Source: Methanocorpusculum sp.
GTDB taxonomy: Archaea; Halobacteriota; Methanomicrobia; Methanomicrobiales; Methanocorpusculaceae
NCBI GenBank assembly: GCA_017408885.1
Contig: JAFQTT010000007.1
Span: 62,001-126,000 of the forward strand
DNA: 64,000 nucleotides
Reading direction: 5' to 3'
Below are positions 26,012-61,809 of this stretch, piece by piece. The first letter of the stretch is position 1, and the number at the start of each line of letters is the position of its first letter. The notes beneath the pieces were generated by a model. It saw only the letters and a program-made list of their open reading frames with translations, had not been told where the DNA came from and did not search any database. The position numbers were made by a program, and so were the translations under genes.

Positions 26012-27853
26012 ATGGAAAATACCATACCGGACCCGGCGGCACTTTCTGCCGCCCTCGAGCTTTTCAACGCTGGAAAATATGACGAAGTAATCAGCTTCGC
26101 ATCAGGCACAACCGACCCGGCATTAATGCTTTTATCAGCCAGAAGCTATGCGGCTGTTGCAAAATATGACATCGCAGAGTCACTTCTTCGGTCTCTTATT
26201 CGAATAATGCCGGGATCATCCTACGTCCACAGCTATTTAGGAGACGTCCTTTTAGCTGTTGGAAATGAAGGAGCAGAAGCAGAGTTTGCAAAAGCAATCA
26301 CTCTCGACCCGGAAAACCTTCCGGCAGTCAGACAGTACGCAGAACTTGTAATTGAAAGAGGTGACCTGAGAGGAGCAATTCCTGCCCTTCGAACTCTTGT
26401 TCGAAACAGCGGAAATGATGAGGATGTAAAAACCCTCATAAAGACATTAACCGCTGTCGGAGAAGCAGACGAAGCAGTAAGTCTGCATCGCAGAACCTTC
26501 AGTGAAGACGAGTTCAGCGTTGAGTACATCGAAGCACTCCTTGCATCCGGCGAGTTCCAGAAAGCATTAAACTTAGCTCTTCGCGGATGGACAGAAACAA
26601 AAGATACCGCATATCTGCGCCTCGATTTGGAAGCACTCGCTGAAATCGACAAAGAAGCCGCAGAAAAAGCATATCGGTCGGCTCTTGACAGCTTTGAAGA
26701 GGCTGAAATTGCTGATGAAAATGTATCTGCAATCCGCTTCTCATTTGTGCTTCTGGAAAAGTATCTCGAAAACTACGATGCCGCAGAGTTCGAACTATCA
26801 CATCTGCTCACACCTGAAGCGGACGCAGTCTATTATCTTCTTTCAGCAGAACTTGCCGCAAAGAAAGATGAAGGAGAAAGAGCGTCTTCAATCTACCGCG
26901 GATTAATCGATTCACTTATGAAGCATGACACCGACTGGGAAACAGCAGAGCTTGTAATCGACAGGTATGTCTCATTCCTCTCCGCAGTTCGTTCAAAAGA
27001 AGAGGTTGCAGGAGTTATCAGTGTTGCTCTATCGGCATATCCGCATGCTGTATGTCTTGCCAAAATCGGTGAGGCATATGAAAATGCAGGAGCGGACAGT
27101 CAGGCAAAGGACTGGTTCTACCGTTCGTACCGCGCAGACTACCTAAACGGAGGTCTGGCATACGCAGGATATCTGAAAAGAAGCAAAGCATTCCGCGAAG
27201 CTGATACAGTTATCCGATACATCCTGACAAACGCAGAGTCGGTCTCTGACTTAGAACACGCATCAGACATCATCCTGAATGGAGACTCAGCACTTTACCA
27301 GCTCGAAAAGTCGCGCGGGCTAGTTCAAAAAAGCCTTGCTTCAGTTTCCGACCGCTTAACATCCAAAGGCCGCGAAATGCTTTCAGCAGTTTATCTTTAT
27401 GCAGCTGTTGACGCTCTCGAGTGCGGAAGTTACGAAGACTGCAAATGGTTCTGTTTAGCAGGAATTGACGTTCTTCCGTGCTACCCTGCAACAATCAGCA
27501 TTCAGGACTTCACCGATATTCTGTCCAGAACCAAAGGAAGAGCAATCGCTGAGAGACCTATTCTTATTGAAAAAGCAGCCGAAGCAGCAGAAGATATAGC
27601 AGAAGAGGAGACAGTATCTGCCGAAGAGGACATTCTGCCAAACCTTGACGAGCGCGAGAAGAAACTTCTCTCATTCCTTCGCGAACACCGGGAAGCAACT
27701 GAGATGGATTTAAGAAGTGTTCTGGACACCAGAAGAGTTGCCGGAATCGTAAACAGCCTTCTTGCAAAAACAGCAGACTTCGGAGTTACTCTAATCGAGA
27801 AACGCGGAGTAGGTGAGAGAGGAGAGGTGTATGGTTATGTCGGCCGCAGATGA
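26012..27853 (+). CDS. TPR-repeat protein with C-terminal winged-helix-like domain
   Basis: A 613-residue protein, mostly antiparallel helices of TPR type: YVHSYLGDVLLAVGNEGAEA and ENLPAVRQYAELVIERGDLR are clear units, and helices continue to about residue 500. An acidic linker rich in Glu and Ala (about 515-545) leads to a final domain, LDEREKKLLSFLREHREATE then SVLDTRRVAGIVNSLL, that reads as a winged helix. It overlaps the next ATPase gene by 17 bases, so the two are probably partners. No enzymatic motif is seen. Confidence 0.75.
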   Translation: MENTIPDPAALSAALELFNAGKYDEVISFASGTTDPALMLLSARSYAAVAKYDIAESLLRSLIRIMPGSSYVHSYLGDVLLAVGNEGAEAEFAKAITLDPENLPAVRQYAELVIERGDLRGAIPALRTLVRNSGNDEDVKTLIKTLTAVGEADEAVSLHRRTFSEDEFSVEYIEALLASGEFQKALNLALRGWTETKDTAYLRLDLEALAEIDKEAAEKAYRSALDSFEEAEIADENVSAIRFSFVLLEKYLENYDAAEFELSHLLTPEADAVYYLLSAELAAKKDEGERASSIYRGLIDSLMKHDTDWETAELVIDRYVSFLSAVRSKEEVAGVISVALSAYPHAVCLAKIGEAYENAGADSQAKDWFYRSYRADYLNGGLAYAGYLKRSKAFREADTVIRYILTNAESVSDLEHASDIILNGDSALYQLEKSRGLVQKSLASVSDRLTSKGREMLSAVYLYAAVDALECGSYEDCKWFCLAGIDVLPCYPATISIQDFTDILSRTKGRAIAERPILIEKAAEAAEDIAEEETVSAEEDILPNLDEREKKLLSFLREHREATEMDLRSVLDTRRVAGIVNSLLAKTADFGVTLIEKRGVGERGEVYGYVGRR

Positions 27854-29123
27854 CCTTCGTCTTGAAAGTATTGCAGTAATCACAGCTCTTAGGAGAGGTA
27901 CTGTCCCGAATGCAGGCCTGTCACGTCTTGCTGTAGGGCTTGAGGCAGAGGAGAAAGTTCTCTCTTCACAGCTCGAGTTCTGTGCCGCAGGGCATGCTGA
28001 CTGCAAATTTGTTCGGGGAGACTATGGTTCCGGAAAGACATTTCTGATTGCCAGAGCCGCAGAGATTGCAAGATCAAAAAAGTTCGTTGTCTCGCATGTC
28101 GTAATCTCCCCGGACACTCCGCTTCACAAACTCACTGCAGTCTACACAAAAATCTGTGCAGGGCTTTCCACTCAAAGCGAGGAACATGCATTAAAGAGCA
28201 TCATCGACACATGGATTTTCGGAATCGAAGACAGACTTATAGAGACCGGGATCGATGAGAATGATGAGCGTCTTGCAGAACTCACCGAAAAAGAAATTGA
28301 GTCATCTTTGGAGAGAGTTGCAGGAGTTAGTTCAGGCCTTGCCGCTGCTGTTCGTACATACTATGCCGCAAACAACCGTGGAGATTTCCAAACAGCCCAG
28401 GCGGCGGTTGGATGGATTTCAGGAGACACAACAGTTGCAAACCGCAGTTTCAAATCCCAGGCAGGTGTAAAAGGCTCGGTATCGGAAACAGATGCCCTGC
28501 TGTTTTTGAAAGGCATCGTTTACTTAATCCGTCAGGCAGGATTTGCCGGATTATTTGTGAGCTTTGACGAAGCAGAAACAGCCCAGGCATTCTCACGTCC
28601 TCAGCGCGAGAAGGGATATATCAACTTACGTCAGCTTGTTGATATGACGGACAAAAACGAGATTCCAGGATGCTTCTTCCTGTTTGCAGGAACTCCGGCA
28701 TTCTTTGAGAGTGCCAAAGGAATCCGCTCACTTCCGCCGCTCTATGACAGAATCGGAATAATCTCCGAAGACGGATTTGCAAACCCGATGCAGACACAGA
28801 TTGTGCTTTCAAAGTTCAACAGCGAGAAACTTGAAAAAGCCGCATACAAAGTCTCAGACATCTACAGTGAAGGATTCGGTCCTGTTGACACATCCCGCGT
28901 GTCTCCAGCCTTCATTCAGACTATGATTTCAAAGGTTACCGGAAGATTCGGCGGAAGAGTTGATGTTGTCCCAAGACTTTTCCTTCGCGAGTTTGTGGAT
29001 GTTCTGGATAAGTGTGCATTGTATGAGAACTACTCTCCGATGGAGAAGTATGCCTTTACTCCCGGAAACGGAGACACTCCGCTGAAGGCTGAAGAGAAGG
29101 CAGTCATGGAAATATCATGGTGA
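27837..29123 (+). CDS. BrxC/BrxD-like (DUF2791) P-loop ATPase
   Basis: A 428-residue ATPase resembling the BREX ATP-binding family (BrxD-like, DUF2791). Walker A is RGDYGSGKTFLIA (about 63-75), Walker B GLFVSFDEAET (about 245), and the family-typical ALRRGTVPNAGLSRLAVGLE opens the protein. Sensor-region FLFAGTPAFFESAKG follows. ATG 27837 is favoured because GGTG (27826-27829) is at proper distance; earlier in-frame starts sit on or before it. It overlaps the TPR gene by 17 bases. No BREX partners (PglZ, PglX methylase, BrxL) are nearby, so the function differs from classical BREX. Confidence 0.78.
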   Translation: MSAADDLRLESIAVITALRRGTVPNAGLSRLAVGLEAEEKVLSSQLEFCAAGHADCKFVRGDYGSGKTFLIARAAEIARSKKFVVSHVVISPDTPLHKLTAVYTKICAGLSTQSEEHALKSIIDTWIFGIEDRLIETGIDENDERLAELTEKEIESSLERVAGVSSGLAAAVRTYYAANNRGDFQTAQAAVGWISGDTTVANRSFKSQAGVKGSVSETDALLFLKGIVYLIRQAGFAGLFVSFDEAETAQAFSRPQREKGYINLRQLVDMTDKNEIPGCFFLFAGTPAFFESAKGIRSLPPLYDRIGIISEDGFANPMQTQIVLSKFNSEKLEKAAYKVSDIYSEGFGPVDTSRVSPAFIQTMISKVTGRFGGRVDVVPRLFLREFVDVLDKCALYENYSPMEKYAFTPGNGDTPLKAEEKAVMEISW

Positions 29124-59280: not shown

Positions 59281-60414
59281 TCACTCTGACCGTGAGATAA
59301 GAGAGAGAATCATCTTTTTGTCTTCGTGAAGATGCACATATCTGCGTCTTCCCCCGCCCTGATTGGAGTATTCAAGGTCGATTAGACGAAGTCGGTCAAG
59401 ACGCTTGAAAATTTCGCTGACACGGGTGAGTTTTGGTCCGTTATCAGGAAGCGCCTCCATGATTTCCTTGGTTGTAGGAGATGTTTCATCCGAAAAAAGC
59501 TCAGCAGCGGTTTTTAGGACAAGGCGCTCGTCATCGGATAAACTGGAGATGAGCATCTCCAAGTGTCTGTCGCGCGAGGCCTCGACAGCTTTTATGATAT
59601 CCTCTTCTGTTACTTCCTTTCTTGCGGCCTTTTCAGCGTAAAGAACCGAGCGCTTGATTAAATCAAGTCCAAGGCGCACATCTCCGTGCTTCATTACATT
59701 GTCGATTATGACATCTAATAGGTCAGGCGGCAGGACTTTTGGATAGAGGCCCTGTTTTACTCTTTCATTCAGGATTCCGGCAATTTCACGCGCAGAGTAC
59801 GGAGGGTACTGGATGACTTCCGGGTGGAAGGTTGACTGTACTCTGACTTCGAGTGAGTTTTGCAGGTCGATTTCCGGGTCGCTTATGATAATTATCAGTC
59901 CGAAGTTTACACTCGGGAAAATCTCATGCATCCGAATGAGCGGGTAGAGGGTTTTGTTGAACTGGTTTTCGTAGATTAGATAGTTCGCATCGTCAAGGCA
60001 TACCAACGGGTGTACGTTTTCCTTTTCGATATAGTGAGCTATCATATCGATAATCTGCTTAACAGAGGTACCTGACGGCGGAGGGCTCAGTTTTGTAAGT
60101 GATGTGTAGATGCGCGTAAAGATTGCGTATTCGCTTGAGTCTATGCGGCAGTTTACATGAATCGGGATTACAAGCTGAGTGGTCTCTCTAAGCGATTCGA
60201 AGATTTTCTTAACCGAGGTGGTTTTTCCGGTTCCGGGAGGTCCGCGGCAGACTGTATCTAAGATTTTTCCTCCGCGAAGGGCAGGGCGTATTGCAAAAAC
60301 CAAAGCCTGTGTCTGTTCGTCACGGTAGTCGAACTGCTCTGGAACATAGTTTAGGTCAAAGACGTCTTGGTCGCGGAAGAGAGTCTCTTCCCAGGAGAGA
60401 AGGTTCTTTTTCAT
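59281..60414 (-). CDS. Orc1/Cdc6 replication initiator
   Basis: A 377-residue AAA+ origin-binding protein. Walker A is [13 protein letters not shown] (about 57-69). The Walker B region is LVCLDDANYLI, with Asp where many members have Glu. Sensor 1 is IIIISDPEI, and the C-terminal winged helix begins about residue 285 (SSLSDDERLVLKTAAELF). As initiator genes often lie beside the origin they serve, the gap beyond the next gene deserves attention. It overlaps the upstream zinc-ribbon gene by one base. Confidence 0.92.
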   Translation of the reverse strand: MKKNLLSWEETLFRDQDVFDLNYVPEQFDYRDEQTQALVFAIRPALRGGKILDTVCRGPPGTGKTTSVKKIFESLRETTQLVIPIHVNCRIDSSEYAIFTRIYTSLTKLSPPPSGTSVKQIIDMIAHYIEKENVHPLVCLDDANYLIYENQFNKTLYPLIRMHEIFPSVNFGLIIIISDPEIDLQNSLEVRVQSTFHPEVIQYPPYSAREIAGILNERVKQGLYPKVLPPDLLDVIIDNVMKHGDVRLGLDLIKRSVLYAEKAARKEVTEEDIIKAVEASRDRHLEMLISSLSDDERLVLKTAAELFSDETSPTTKEIMEALPDNGPKLTRVSEIFKRLDRLRLIDLEYSNQGGGRRRYVHLHEDKKMILSLISRSE

Positions 60415-60902
60415 TATTTCATGCAGTCTTTGCAGAGGATTTTGTGGTTGAAGAGCATTGAGACATCACGCTGAAGTTTTGTAACAGGTGCTCCGCACTT
60501 TGAGCAGGTGAACTCGGCATCCGCGGCCTGCCTTGGGGAAGGAGTTTCCTCTTCCTCTTTTTCCGGTTCCGGTTCTGATGCGAACTCCAAGGTTAGCGGT
60601 TCTGCTGCCGGGGACTCAATCTCTTCGGTTGGGACAAACGGCATTGGCGTGTCTTCGAAGGTGAATGCTTCGGTCTCTGGTTCAATATCTGCGTCAGCTA
60701 AGATACGCTCTTTGTATTTGTCGATGGCGGACTTTGCTGTTGCATTGTTATTTCCGTATCCGTCTAAGATATCTGCCAGGAAATAACGAAGTGCATCGGC
60801 TTCCTCTTTTGTCTCTGCTTTGTCGGAGACTTCGAGGCGAAGGTTTTCGTAGTTGCCAAGATTGATTGTGATACTTACTGTGACAGTTCGATTTTCCGCC
60901 AT
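60414..60902 (-). CDS. Unassigned protein with C-terminal zinc ribbon, coupled to orc1/cdc6
   Basis: A 162-residue protein. The N-terminal 70 residues (RTVTVSITINLGNYENLRLE, then a helix) read as a compact alpha-beta domain, followed by a Glu/Pro-rich linker (about 75-130) and FTCSKCGAPVTKLQRD...CKDC, a four-cysteine zinc ribbon. Its stop overlaps the orc1/cdc6 start, so the two are co-translated, and a role with the initiator is plausible. Not recognised otherwise. Confidence 0.65.
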   Translation of the reverse strand: MAENRTVTVSITINLGNYENLRLEVSDKAETKEEADALRYFLADILDGYGNNNATAKSAIDKYKERILADADIEPETEAFTFEDTPMPFVPTEEIESPAAEPLTLEFASEPEPEKEEEETPSPRQAADAEFTCSKCGAPVTKLQRDVSMLFNHKILCKDCMK

Positions 60903-61094
60903 TGTTTGCTGTTTAAGAATAGGTATTTTGAGGGGTTAAAGATTCGGGTTCATTCGGTGTTGTGGTGATAGGATTGAGTGATGGACTTTCGCGTGTGTTT
61001 TTGTTTTATTGCGGAGCAGTCAGATAAAACCAGAAAAAAACATTCCCAACAGGAGTACAACACACTCACATACCCCACGCCACCTACAGAAATC
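60903..61094. other. Intergenic region upstream of the zinc-ribbon/orc1 operon
   Basis: There is no credible gene here. For the leftward operon a TATA-like AATCTTTAA (minus-strand sense near 60936-60946) would start RNA close to the ATG at 60902. I see no repeated origin-recognition-box sequence, so an origin is possible only by position next to orc1/cdc6. Confidence 0.3.
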
Positions 61095-61125
61095 TTTTAT
61101 ACATGCGAGACTTACTAATAGTAAG
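61095..61125 (+). promoter_or_regulatory. TATA box and perfect palindrome before a putative structured RNA
   Basis: TTTTATAC (61095-61102) is a good archaeal TATA sequence. Twenty-six bases past its centre is about 61125. Between lies CTTACTA-A-TAGTAAG (61111-61125), a perfect 7-bp inverted repeat ending at the predicted start, the classic position for a repressor. Confidence 0.45.
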
Positions 61126-61314
61126 CAACAATTGAGTGGGAATAACCACTGCAAAAAGTTGCGGCACAGACACCACTGTGCTTTGCTGAAACTCATGCAC
61201 CACAAAACAGCAAATACTCATAACACACCTCCGGCACGGAATGATAATTCCGATGCGTAAACATACAGATATCTCCCCTGATTTGCCGGTGAAAATCCGG
61301 CTCTCCCTATTTTT
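61125..61314 (+). ncRNA. Putative structured non-coding RNA
   Basis: About 190 bases with no credible reading frame but successive perfect stems: GCAAC (61125-61129)/GTTGC (61158-61162) enclosing AGTGG (61135-61139)/CCACT (61146-61150); GCACAG (61164-61169)/CTGTGC (61176-61181); CGGAAT (61237-61242)/ATTCCG (61247-61252) with loop GATA; and GCCGG (61285-61289)/CCGGC (61297-61301) followed by TATTTTT. A TATA box is placed correctly at the 5' side. It does not read as a tRNA, 5S, SRP or RNase P RNA. RNA gene status is inference. Confidence 0.4.
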
Positions 61315-61326
61315 GAAAAAAAAAGT

Positions 61327-61809
61327 TTAGTCAGTATCTTTTAATGCAGTGATACTCTCAACATTAGTTAAGGCCCAGACCATTGAATTGTTTGAATTCA
61401 AAATCTCTGAAACCGGTTCATGGCTGCTGATTCCAAGAGCCTTTAACGCATTTTCAGAAAGATCGCGGTTCCCGATTAAATCTGCAAACATACGGCGCAC
61501 GGACTGCTTTTCATCAGGATTTACAATCTCTTCAAGGCGTCCTGAAAGCGTTACAAATCTGTAGTAACTCATATCATGTGCAACATCCTCGACTTCTACT
61601 GATACATGCGGATTAGTTTTGAAAAAGTCCATCTTTTTACCATACCTTGTTGGAAGGAAATAGAGACGTTTTCCGTCAAAGACATAGAGAAAAGGAGCGA
61701 TGTATGCACGATCGTTTTTTGTAAAAGCGATTCTTGAGAGATGGTTTTCGTGGAGAAGTTTATCGTATTCTGTTCTTGGCATCGAAGGGATTTTCACAAG
61801 AGATGTCAT
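61327..61809 (-). CDS. Pyridoxamine 5'-phosphate oxidase-like flavin/F420-binding protein
   Basis: A 160-residue split-barrel protein. EYDKLLHENHLSRIAFTKND, APFLYVFDGKRLYFLPTRYG and VSVEVEDVAHDMSYYRFVTL give the barrel typical of PNPOx-like nitroreductase-type proteins that bind FMN, F420 or heme. The tail (about 110-160) is helical. Substrate unknown. Its message probably ends at the A-run 61316-61324, a T-run on its strand. Confidence 0.82.
   Translation of the reverse strand: MTSLVKIPSMPRTEYDKLLHENHLSRIAFTKNDRAYIAPFLYVFDGKRLYFLPTRYGKKMDFFKTNPHVSVEVEDVAHDMSYYRFVTLSGRLEEIVNPDEKQSVRRMFADLIGNRDLSENALKALGISSHEPVSEILNSNNSMVWALTNVESITALKDTD

Follow-up and report, generated by a model that had tools for sequence, protein, structure and literature searches.

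Within a 64,000-nucleotide stretch of a Methanocorpusculum genome (hereafter the window), positions 61111-61314 appear to constitute a stand-alone small RNA gene of the heat-shock regulon that would be controlled by a repressor and act in trans upon mRNAs, a reading to which we assign a probability of roughly 0.6. An RNA gene lying beside a replication gene of this gut methanogen would thus probably be switched on by overheating, and its RNA perhaps retunes which proteins are made. The gene shares its operator and a largely common promoter geometry with hsp20, and both its presence in the genus and its folding are conserved.

An earlier note on this DNA, made from the letters alone, had proposed a TATA box, a perfect 15-base palindrome at the expected transcription start, a series of perfect stems, a hairpin with a GATA loop and a final hairpin followed by T5, all of which are present exactly where it had placed them (Table 1). 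The minimum-energy fold includes one additional stem beyond that list, TTGCTG/CAGCAA. Folding of the + strand exceeds chance, as positions 61118-61319 reach -53.5 kcal/mol (z -3.65) with 0/200 dinucleotide shuffles as stable; for the - strand (61090-61330), the fold z is -1.63 and 9/200 shuffles were as stable. The earlier note could name no RNA class for the locus and had called for an Rfam search, and indeed the locus is without a match at the gathering threshold: the whole window yielded two tRNAs only, and at E values up to 10 there were only two sub-threshold matches near the locus. Several segments of the window RNA are predicted to be exposed, with mean unpaired probabilities of 0.95 for CTCATGCACCACA and 0.78 for GATATCTCCC, the latter within 61262-61281. 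For CACCTCC, the corresponding value is 0.97 in the window's genome (designated G000 among the genomes compared) and 0.98 in G002, but only 0.42 in G007. The conserved segments of the window RNA (CACCTCC and GATATCTCCC) are both pyrimidine-rich.

Table 1. Features of the putative RNA gene and its neighbours, in window positions.
Feature	Positions	Strand	Basis
orc1/cdc6	59281..60414	-	Cdc6 lid, AAA
162-aa protein, paired with orc1	60414..60902	-	Pfam: no match
TATA box TTTTATAC of the putative RNA gene	61095..61102	+	octamer scoring, spacing to operator
Predicted heat-shock operator CTTACTAATAGTAAG, CTTAC-N5-GTAAG, over expected transcription start	61111..61125	.	same motif at hsp20, repressor and other RNA genes
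Putative non-coding RNA, ~190 nt	61124..61314	+	fold z -3.65; homologues in G002, G007, G023; start predicted from TATA distance
5' stem GCAAC/GTTGC (61125-61129/61158-61162) with inner hairpin	61125..61162	+	in 4/4 type I RNAs
Stem GGCACAG/CTGTGCT (61163-61169/61176-61182)	61163..61182	+	fold; not in G007
Stem TTGCTG/CAGCAA (61183-61188/61208-61213) closing A/C-rich loop (AAACTCATGCACCACA..)	61183..61213	+	fold; not in G007
CACCTCC	61226..61232	+	also in G002, G007
Hairpin CGGAAT-GATA-ATTCCG	61237..61252	+	relatives: place kept, sequence replaced
Segment CATACAGATATCTCCCCTGA, the best conserved, mostly unpaired; candidate for target pairing	61262..61281	+	homologue comparison
Terminator-like hairpin GCCGG-7-CCGGC, then TATTTTT	61285..61314	+	stem in 4/4 type I RNAs
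Pyridoxamine-phosphate-oxidase-like protein, convergent neighbour	61327..61809	-	Pyridox_ox_2

The palindrome over the expected transcription start is common to hsp20. The genome G000 (90.5% complete) contains exactly three copies of CTTACNNNNNGTAAG, at the RNA gene, at hsp20 and at the gene of an ArsR-type Phr-like repressor, which is thus itself preceded by the operator. Across a set of 25 genomes of the genus, a Pfam HSP20 search identified one hsp20 gene each in 22, and the best CTTAC-N5-GTAAG-like site upstream of these genes matched 10/10 half-site bases in 12 genomes, 9/10 in nine and 8/10 in one. Shuffled hsp20 regions reached at least nine half-site bases in 96/6600 cases and at least eight in 1156/6600. 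Because eight or more are reached by many shuffled regions, the single 8-base site, that of G016, is not significant by itself; it was equalled by 50/300 shuffles and is no better than chance alone. Exact copies of CTTACTAWTAGTAAG number 17 across the 25 genomes, eight located at hsp20 and nine at RNA genes of this kind. In G000 there are 3 sites for the motif itself and 4-5 for its backward control, which means that the motif is not rare as such, and the argument is therefore carried by the position and conservation of the sites. The highest-scoring TATA-like octamer starts 17 nt before the operator in 14/17 RNA promoters and 18/22 hsp20 promoters, counts that depend upon the scoring, with the best octamer of the remaining promoters at 19-32 nt. 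The TATA-like box of the G000 regulator gene starts 18 nt before the operator, while the RNA gene of G007 has a degenerate operator and a TATA box that is not at 17 nt. Judging from these sites, the CTTAC-N5-GTAAG palindrome marks a predicted heat-shock regulon, and the operator of the RNA gene appears to be the same heat-shock operator found at hsp20 and the repressor gene.

Similar palindromes were also seen elsewhere. Heat-shock-like palindromes such as CTTACTAATGGTAAG and CTTACATGAGGTAAG lie at the starts of DUF7123-type genes (loci L094, L095, L135, L138 and L143, the DUF7123 assignment being by Pfam for L094 only), and in L135 one precedes each of two adjacent paralogues; these genes are possible further members of the regulon. 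With two mismatches, as CTTTCTATAAGTAAG, the palindrome is also conserved ahead of an isoleucyl-tRNA-synthetase-like gene in G000, G007 and G010 (L097, L100 and L067).

The regulator encoded in G000 has as its best PDB match 2p4w (E 5.7e-12), which we take to be Phr of Pyrococcus furiosus, and it matches Pfam HTH_5. Its best NCBIfam model is Phr_regulator, but the score of 59.9 bits does not pass the cut-off of 320 bits and is far below it, and we therefore regard the protein as a Phr/HSR1-like regulator and not as Phr itself. Matches to it at E 1e-10 or better were present in 76/80 genomes sampled in the order. Thirty regulator promoters were compared: CTTAC-N5-GTAA[G/T] is present in the 10 that belong to the genus, and CTAAC-N5-GT[A/T]A in all 20 that belong to other genera of the order, with four of the 20 having the full CTAAC-N5-GTTAG. 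This last sequence is the motif given for Archaeoglobus fulgidus HSR1 in the excerpted text of PMC9133787. A further genus of the family, sampled through five genomes, has seven copies of CTAACNNNNNGTTAG: four adjoin regulator matches, and the other three precede genes identified by eye as hsp20. The identity of the regulator, together with the promoter motifs across the order and family, assigns the operator to a predicted heat-shock repressor of the Phr/HSR1 type.

The genomic setting of the gene bears upon two other explanations. In G000, G002 and G007, the RNA gene lies between the orc1 pair and uvrB; no pyridoxamine-phosphate-oxidase match was found at the G002 locus. These are the only three of 17 genomes in which it adjoins the orc1 pair, as in the other 14 it is located elsewhere in the assembly, at a distance of ~13 kb in G003 and G017 and on a different contig in G023. 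The RNA of G023 lies near a frame that, by eye, resembles a transposase. The 162-aa protein is present in 22/25 genomes of the genus and adjoins orc1/cdc6 in the loci compared (59281-60902 on the - strand of the window). The earlier note had offered a replication-origin element beside orc1 as its alternative, given that inverted repeats adjoin the initiator gene, but this is undercut by the 14/17 genomes whose operator-RNA units are away from orc1, while hsp20 accounts for the palindrome. In addition, a conserved site beside orc1 with repeated initiator boxes was not found, and the repeats within positions 60800-61600 are two-copy matches, with no larger family. We therefore consider an origin extremely improbable.

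It could also be argued that the operator is a remnant or acts on the 162-aa/orc1 genes, which are divergent, with the folded RNA being a functionless by-product, since palindromes are directionless and this one is 209 bp upstream of the start at 60902. However, on the + side (the side that was scored) the highest-scoring TATA-like box has the spacing seen at hsp20, the 49 bases immediately upstream of the 162-aa gene have a conservation of their own in G002, G007 and G010, the RNA is found apart from orc1 in most genomes that have it, and both its structure and its segments are conserved. A by-product is accordingly a distinctly unlikely explanation.

A 424-base query identified relatives of the window RNA in G002, G007 and G023, which we refer to as type I. 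G007 and G023 share the 20-mer CATACAGATATCTCCCCTGA unchanged, while G002 lacks one of its C residues; all four RNAs retain the terminator stem, save one outer pair in G002. The insert of the GCAAC/GTTGC stem ranges from a few to ~70 nt. The hairpin at 61237-61252 is replaced in sequence, with left arms of CGGAAT, TCAGAA, GCATGA and GCATGA in the four RNAs; each of its six pairs differs on both sides somewhere, with pairing kept in 4/4. The same stem length arose in 81 (G000), 111 (G007), 29 (G023) and 2 (G002) of 5000 shuffles of the hairpin region. RNAalifold counted 0/28 compensatory pairs in the type I RNAs as aligned by MAFFT, an alignment that leaves the arms of this hairpin unaligned. 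The covariation that the earlier note had proposed as a check was therefore found for one hairpin of the window RNA and for the type B relatives described below, and not for its other stems. An exact scan of genome and viral contig collections with a conserved 19-letter pattern gave 5 + 1 stretches and no new homologue: three of the six are those of G002, G007 and G023, and the others (L181, L183 and L184), being without the RNA's other features in the stretches shown, were attributed to chance.

The same comparison addresses whether the locus might instead encode a small protein or leader peptide on either strand. Short frames do exist on both strands, and the - strand has SD-like stretches before ATG as judged by eye, but the + strand frames of at least 12 codons differ in start, stop and length among G000, G002, G007 and G023, the hairpin arms change such that pairing survives, and the promoter and terminator indicate the + strand. 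A peptide is thus a very unlikely product, in line with the view of the earlier note that the locus has no credible protein frame. Having, by its sequence, its own promoter and terminator, a structure and no conserved frame, the gene has the features expected of a putative trans-acting sRNA, and the dedicated regulated RNA that the earlier note had pictured (promoter, operator at the start site, folded body and terminator) is backed by comparative evidence.

An operator-driven, apparently non-coding folded unit was recognised in 17/25 genomes of the genus, including 12/12 genomes that are at least 90% complete; the eight genomes in which it was not recognised are each <80% complete. These RNAs fall into four sequence types: type I (G000, G002, G007 and G023), type A (G001, G004, G005, G008, G018 and G019), type B (G003, G012, G014, G015, G017 and G020) and a further form in G009. 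In G015, the type B locus spans approximately 1,215,930-1,216,176 on the - strand of its contig, with an expected RNA of ~230 nt. All 17 have fold z values between -2.06 and -6.24 (40 shuffles each), bearing in mind that tallies of the 17 RNAs count related ones more than once. Type B has the strongest covariation, with 15/52 pairs changed on both sides versus a shuffle mean of 5.3 and 0/500 shuffles with as many. Its structure pairs in 91.3% of cells, which drops to 36-46% for slid structures, although the six sequences used for this test, some of them near-identical, also supplied the structure. Further pair types in type B gave a weaker signal (21/500 shuffles), and type A has compensatory changes in 3/24 pairs. 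Models of the 3' modules of type B and type I matched their own type only (6 and 4 of 25 genomes, respectively) with no cross-match, and the RNA bodies of different types do not align; therefore, common descent is demonstrated within types only. Pfam identified a TrkA-type gene next to one RNA of each of types A and B (L142 and L070), and TrkA-like frames were seen by eye in L065, L091 and L144, though not in L066, which suggests that the type A and B RNAs may derive from one ancestral locus.

It should be noted that two loci have uncertain status. G014 contains a second, weaker type B copy (L228, E 6e-10) ~6 kb from the first, which has no CTTAC-N5-GTAA upstream and has TTCACCTCC in its body; its operator is perhaps degenerate. 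In G016, a doubtful site, CTTACCAATAGTAAG, has a TATA-like stretch upstream and is followed by a short GGAGATATATCTCC palindrome between convergent genes (L148), and this arrangement may represent a reduced version of the RNA. Outside the genus, a strict motif and one model revealed no such RNA in another genus of the family. The best match of the type B 3'-module covariance model in five sister-genus genomes (E 3e-6) was taken as chance because it is antisense in a long reading frame and no operator-like match was reported in its locus.

With respect to function, CACCTCC corresponds letter for letter to the anti-Shine-Dalgarno sequence in the 3' tail of archaeal 16S rRNA, and members of each RNA type contain CACCTCC, TCACCTCC or TTCCTCCT. 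Hexamers of that tail number 24 in the 17 RNAs, compared with a shuffle mean of 8.8 and a maximum of 22 in 400, a count in which related RNAs are recounted. The type A RNAs of G018 and G019 are without a 16S-tail match longer than four bases. One might accordingly suppose a heat-shock RNA that copies the anti-Shine-Dalgarno end and is released together with the small chaperone, such that translation of chosen or many mRNAs would be throttled while Hsp20 protects proteins, the body of the RNA having been replaced between clades and the switch kept. We consider this tentative and rather unlikely. Four segments of the RNA, compared with the translation starts of 60 genes in the window, exhibited no preference for them over coding windows (Mann-Whitney p 0.56-0.95), in a test whose rule for selecting start codons itself favours SD-like upstream bases. 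An excess of a searched complementarity pattern over its backward control in G000 (11+10 vs 1+1) was set aside because the pattern resembles a generic ribosome site.

The lack of preference for translation starts would also fit a different mode of action for the RNA of the same proposed heat-shock gene, namely as a sponge or scaffold that holds a protein or ribosomes via its A/C-rich loops. The RNAs are G-poor (13-25% G) and C/A-rich, and CACC/ACAC words recur in their loops while the bodies are replaced; yet the most constrained stretch of type I is a single 20-mer (61262-61281) and not a repeat, and there is no known binding protein. A sponge or scaffold is unlikely on this evidence. Given that translation starts are not preferred in general, we favour pairing with a restricted number of mRNAs, as in one loop of sRNA154 in the excerpted account of PMC5867862, and the RNA probably pairs with mRNAs through its C-rich loops.

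The exposed conserved segments gave candidate target duplexes as single cases only. The strongest among the 60 window genes, at -21.9 kcal/mol, forms between the conserved segment of the RNA and the start region of brxC/D (27837), and was reached by 3/6000 random windows. Because it stands out as the top duplex among all combinations of 60 genes with four segments, it is a lead only. The gene itself encodes a BREX-type ATP-binding protein (BrxC/D; 27837-29123 on the + strand; Pfam PF10923, 419 bits), and the window may therefore contain a BREX-like anti-phage system. A complementarity of ~15 bp to a P-II coding region in three genomes, with one G-U pair (and one bulge in G000), is at chance level by estimate, and it is further weakened by the near identity of the P-II locus as a whole between those genomes. 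Approximately 0.8 kb around the P-II gene is identical at 58-60/60 positions per window among G000, G002 and G007 (L202, L197 and L200), beyond which G002 diverges sharply; four RNA-adjacent proteins are 67-98% identical between G000 and G002/G007. Recent exchange or assembly contamination is possible for this stretch.

The mechanism that we propose is as follows. At normal temperature, an ArsR-type winged-helix repressor of the Phr/HSR1 kind would sit on CTTAC-N5-GTAAG across the start site and block RNA polymerase. Upon heat stress, the repressor would leave the operator, and hsp20, the repressor gene and the RNA would be transcribed together. For comparison, Methanocorpusculum labreanum Z, a cultured strain of the genus, is reported to grow at 25-40 C (PMC3035222). 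We infer this binding and joint induction from the shared operator and from the published action of Phr and HSR1, as given in excerpts of PMC9133787 and PMC10653856. The resulting ~190-nt RNA would work in trans, with its unpaired C-rich segments CACCTCC, GATATCTCCCC and CATGCACCACA pairing with particular mRNAs and lowering their translation under heat stress; action in trans through these segments is the more tentative part of the proposal.

If correct, then with a conserved RNA gene as third member of the regulon the archaeal heat-shock response would extend to the post-transcriptional level. MicA and RybB of the sigma-E response are stress-controlled bacterial sRNAs of sigma-factor regulons, and the arrangement is alike in that a stress regulator drives protein factors plus an sRNA that trims other expression. 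They differ in the type of regulator, which here is a repressor on the start site, and in the domain of life. As described in the excerpted text of PMC5867862, sRNA154 of Methanosarcina mazei is likewise a structured, intergenic, stress-controlled methanogen sRNA with exposed loops, one of which masks a ribosome binding site by means of an anti-RBS sequence. It is under nitrogen control and has known targets, whereas the RNA described here has a predicted heat-shock operator. Among the matches listed from open-licence PubMed Central, none described an RNA gene as belonging to the regulon of Phr or HSR1, and the excerpts used present archaeal heat-shock control as a repressor acting on protein genes; the Phr targets given in the excerpt of PMC10746257 are proteins. 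As excerpted, the regulons of HSR1 (A. fulgidus) and Phr (P. furiosus) are similar to the present one in having an ArsR-type repressor, an operator before the repressor's own gene and over the start site, and hsp20 as a target. The likeness to HSR1 extends to its motif, which the family and order of the window's genome carry, even though the HSR1 operator reads CTAAC-N5-GTTAG in the excerpt versus the CTTAC/GTAAG half-sites found here. The targets named for HSR1 and Phr in these excerpts are proteins (sHsp, AAA+ ATPase and further chaperones), in contrast to the putative RNA gene that is a member here. Overall, the regulon is a known archaeal heat-shock regulon and, as far as literature searches go, the RNA gene would be a new kind of member.
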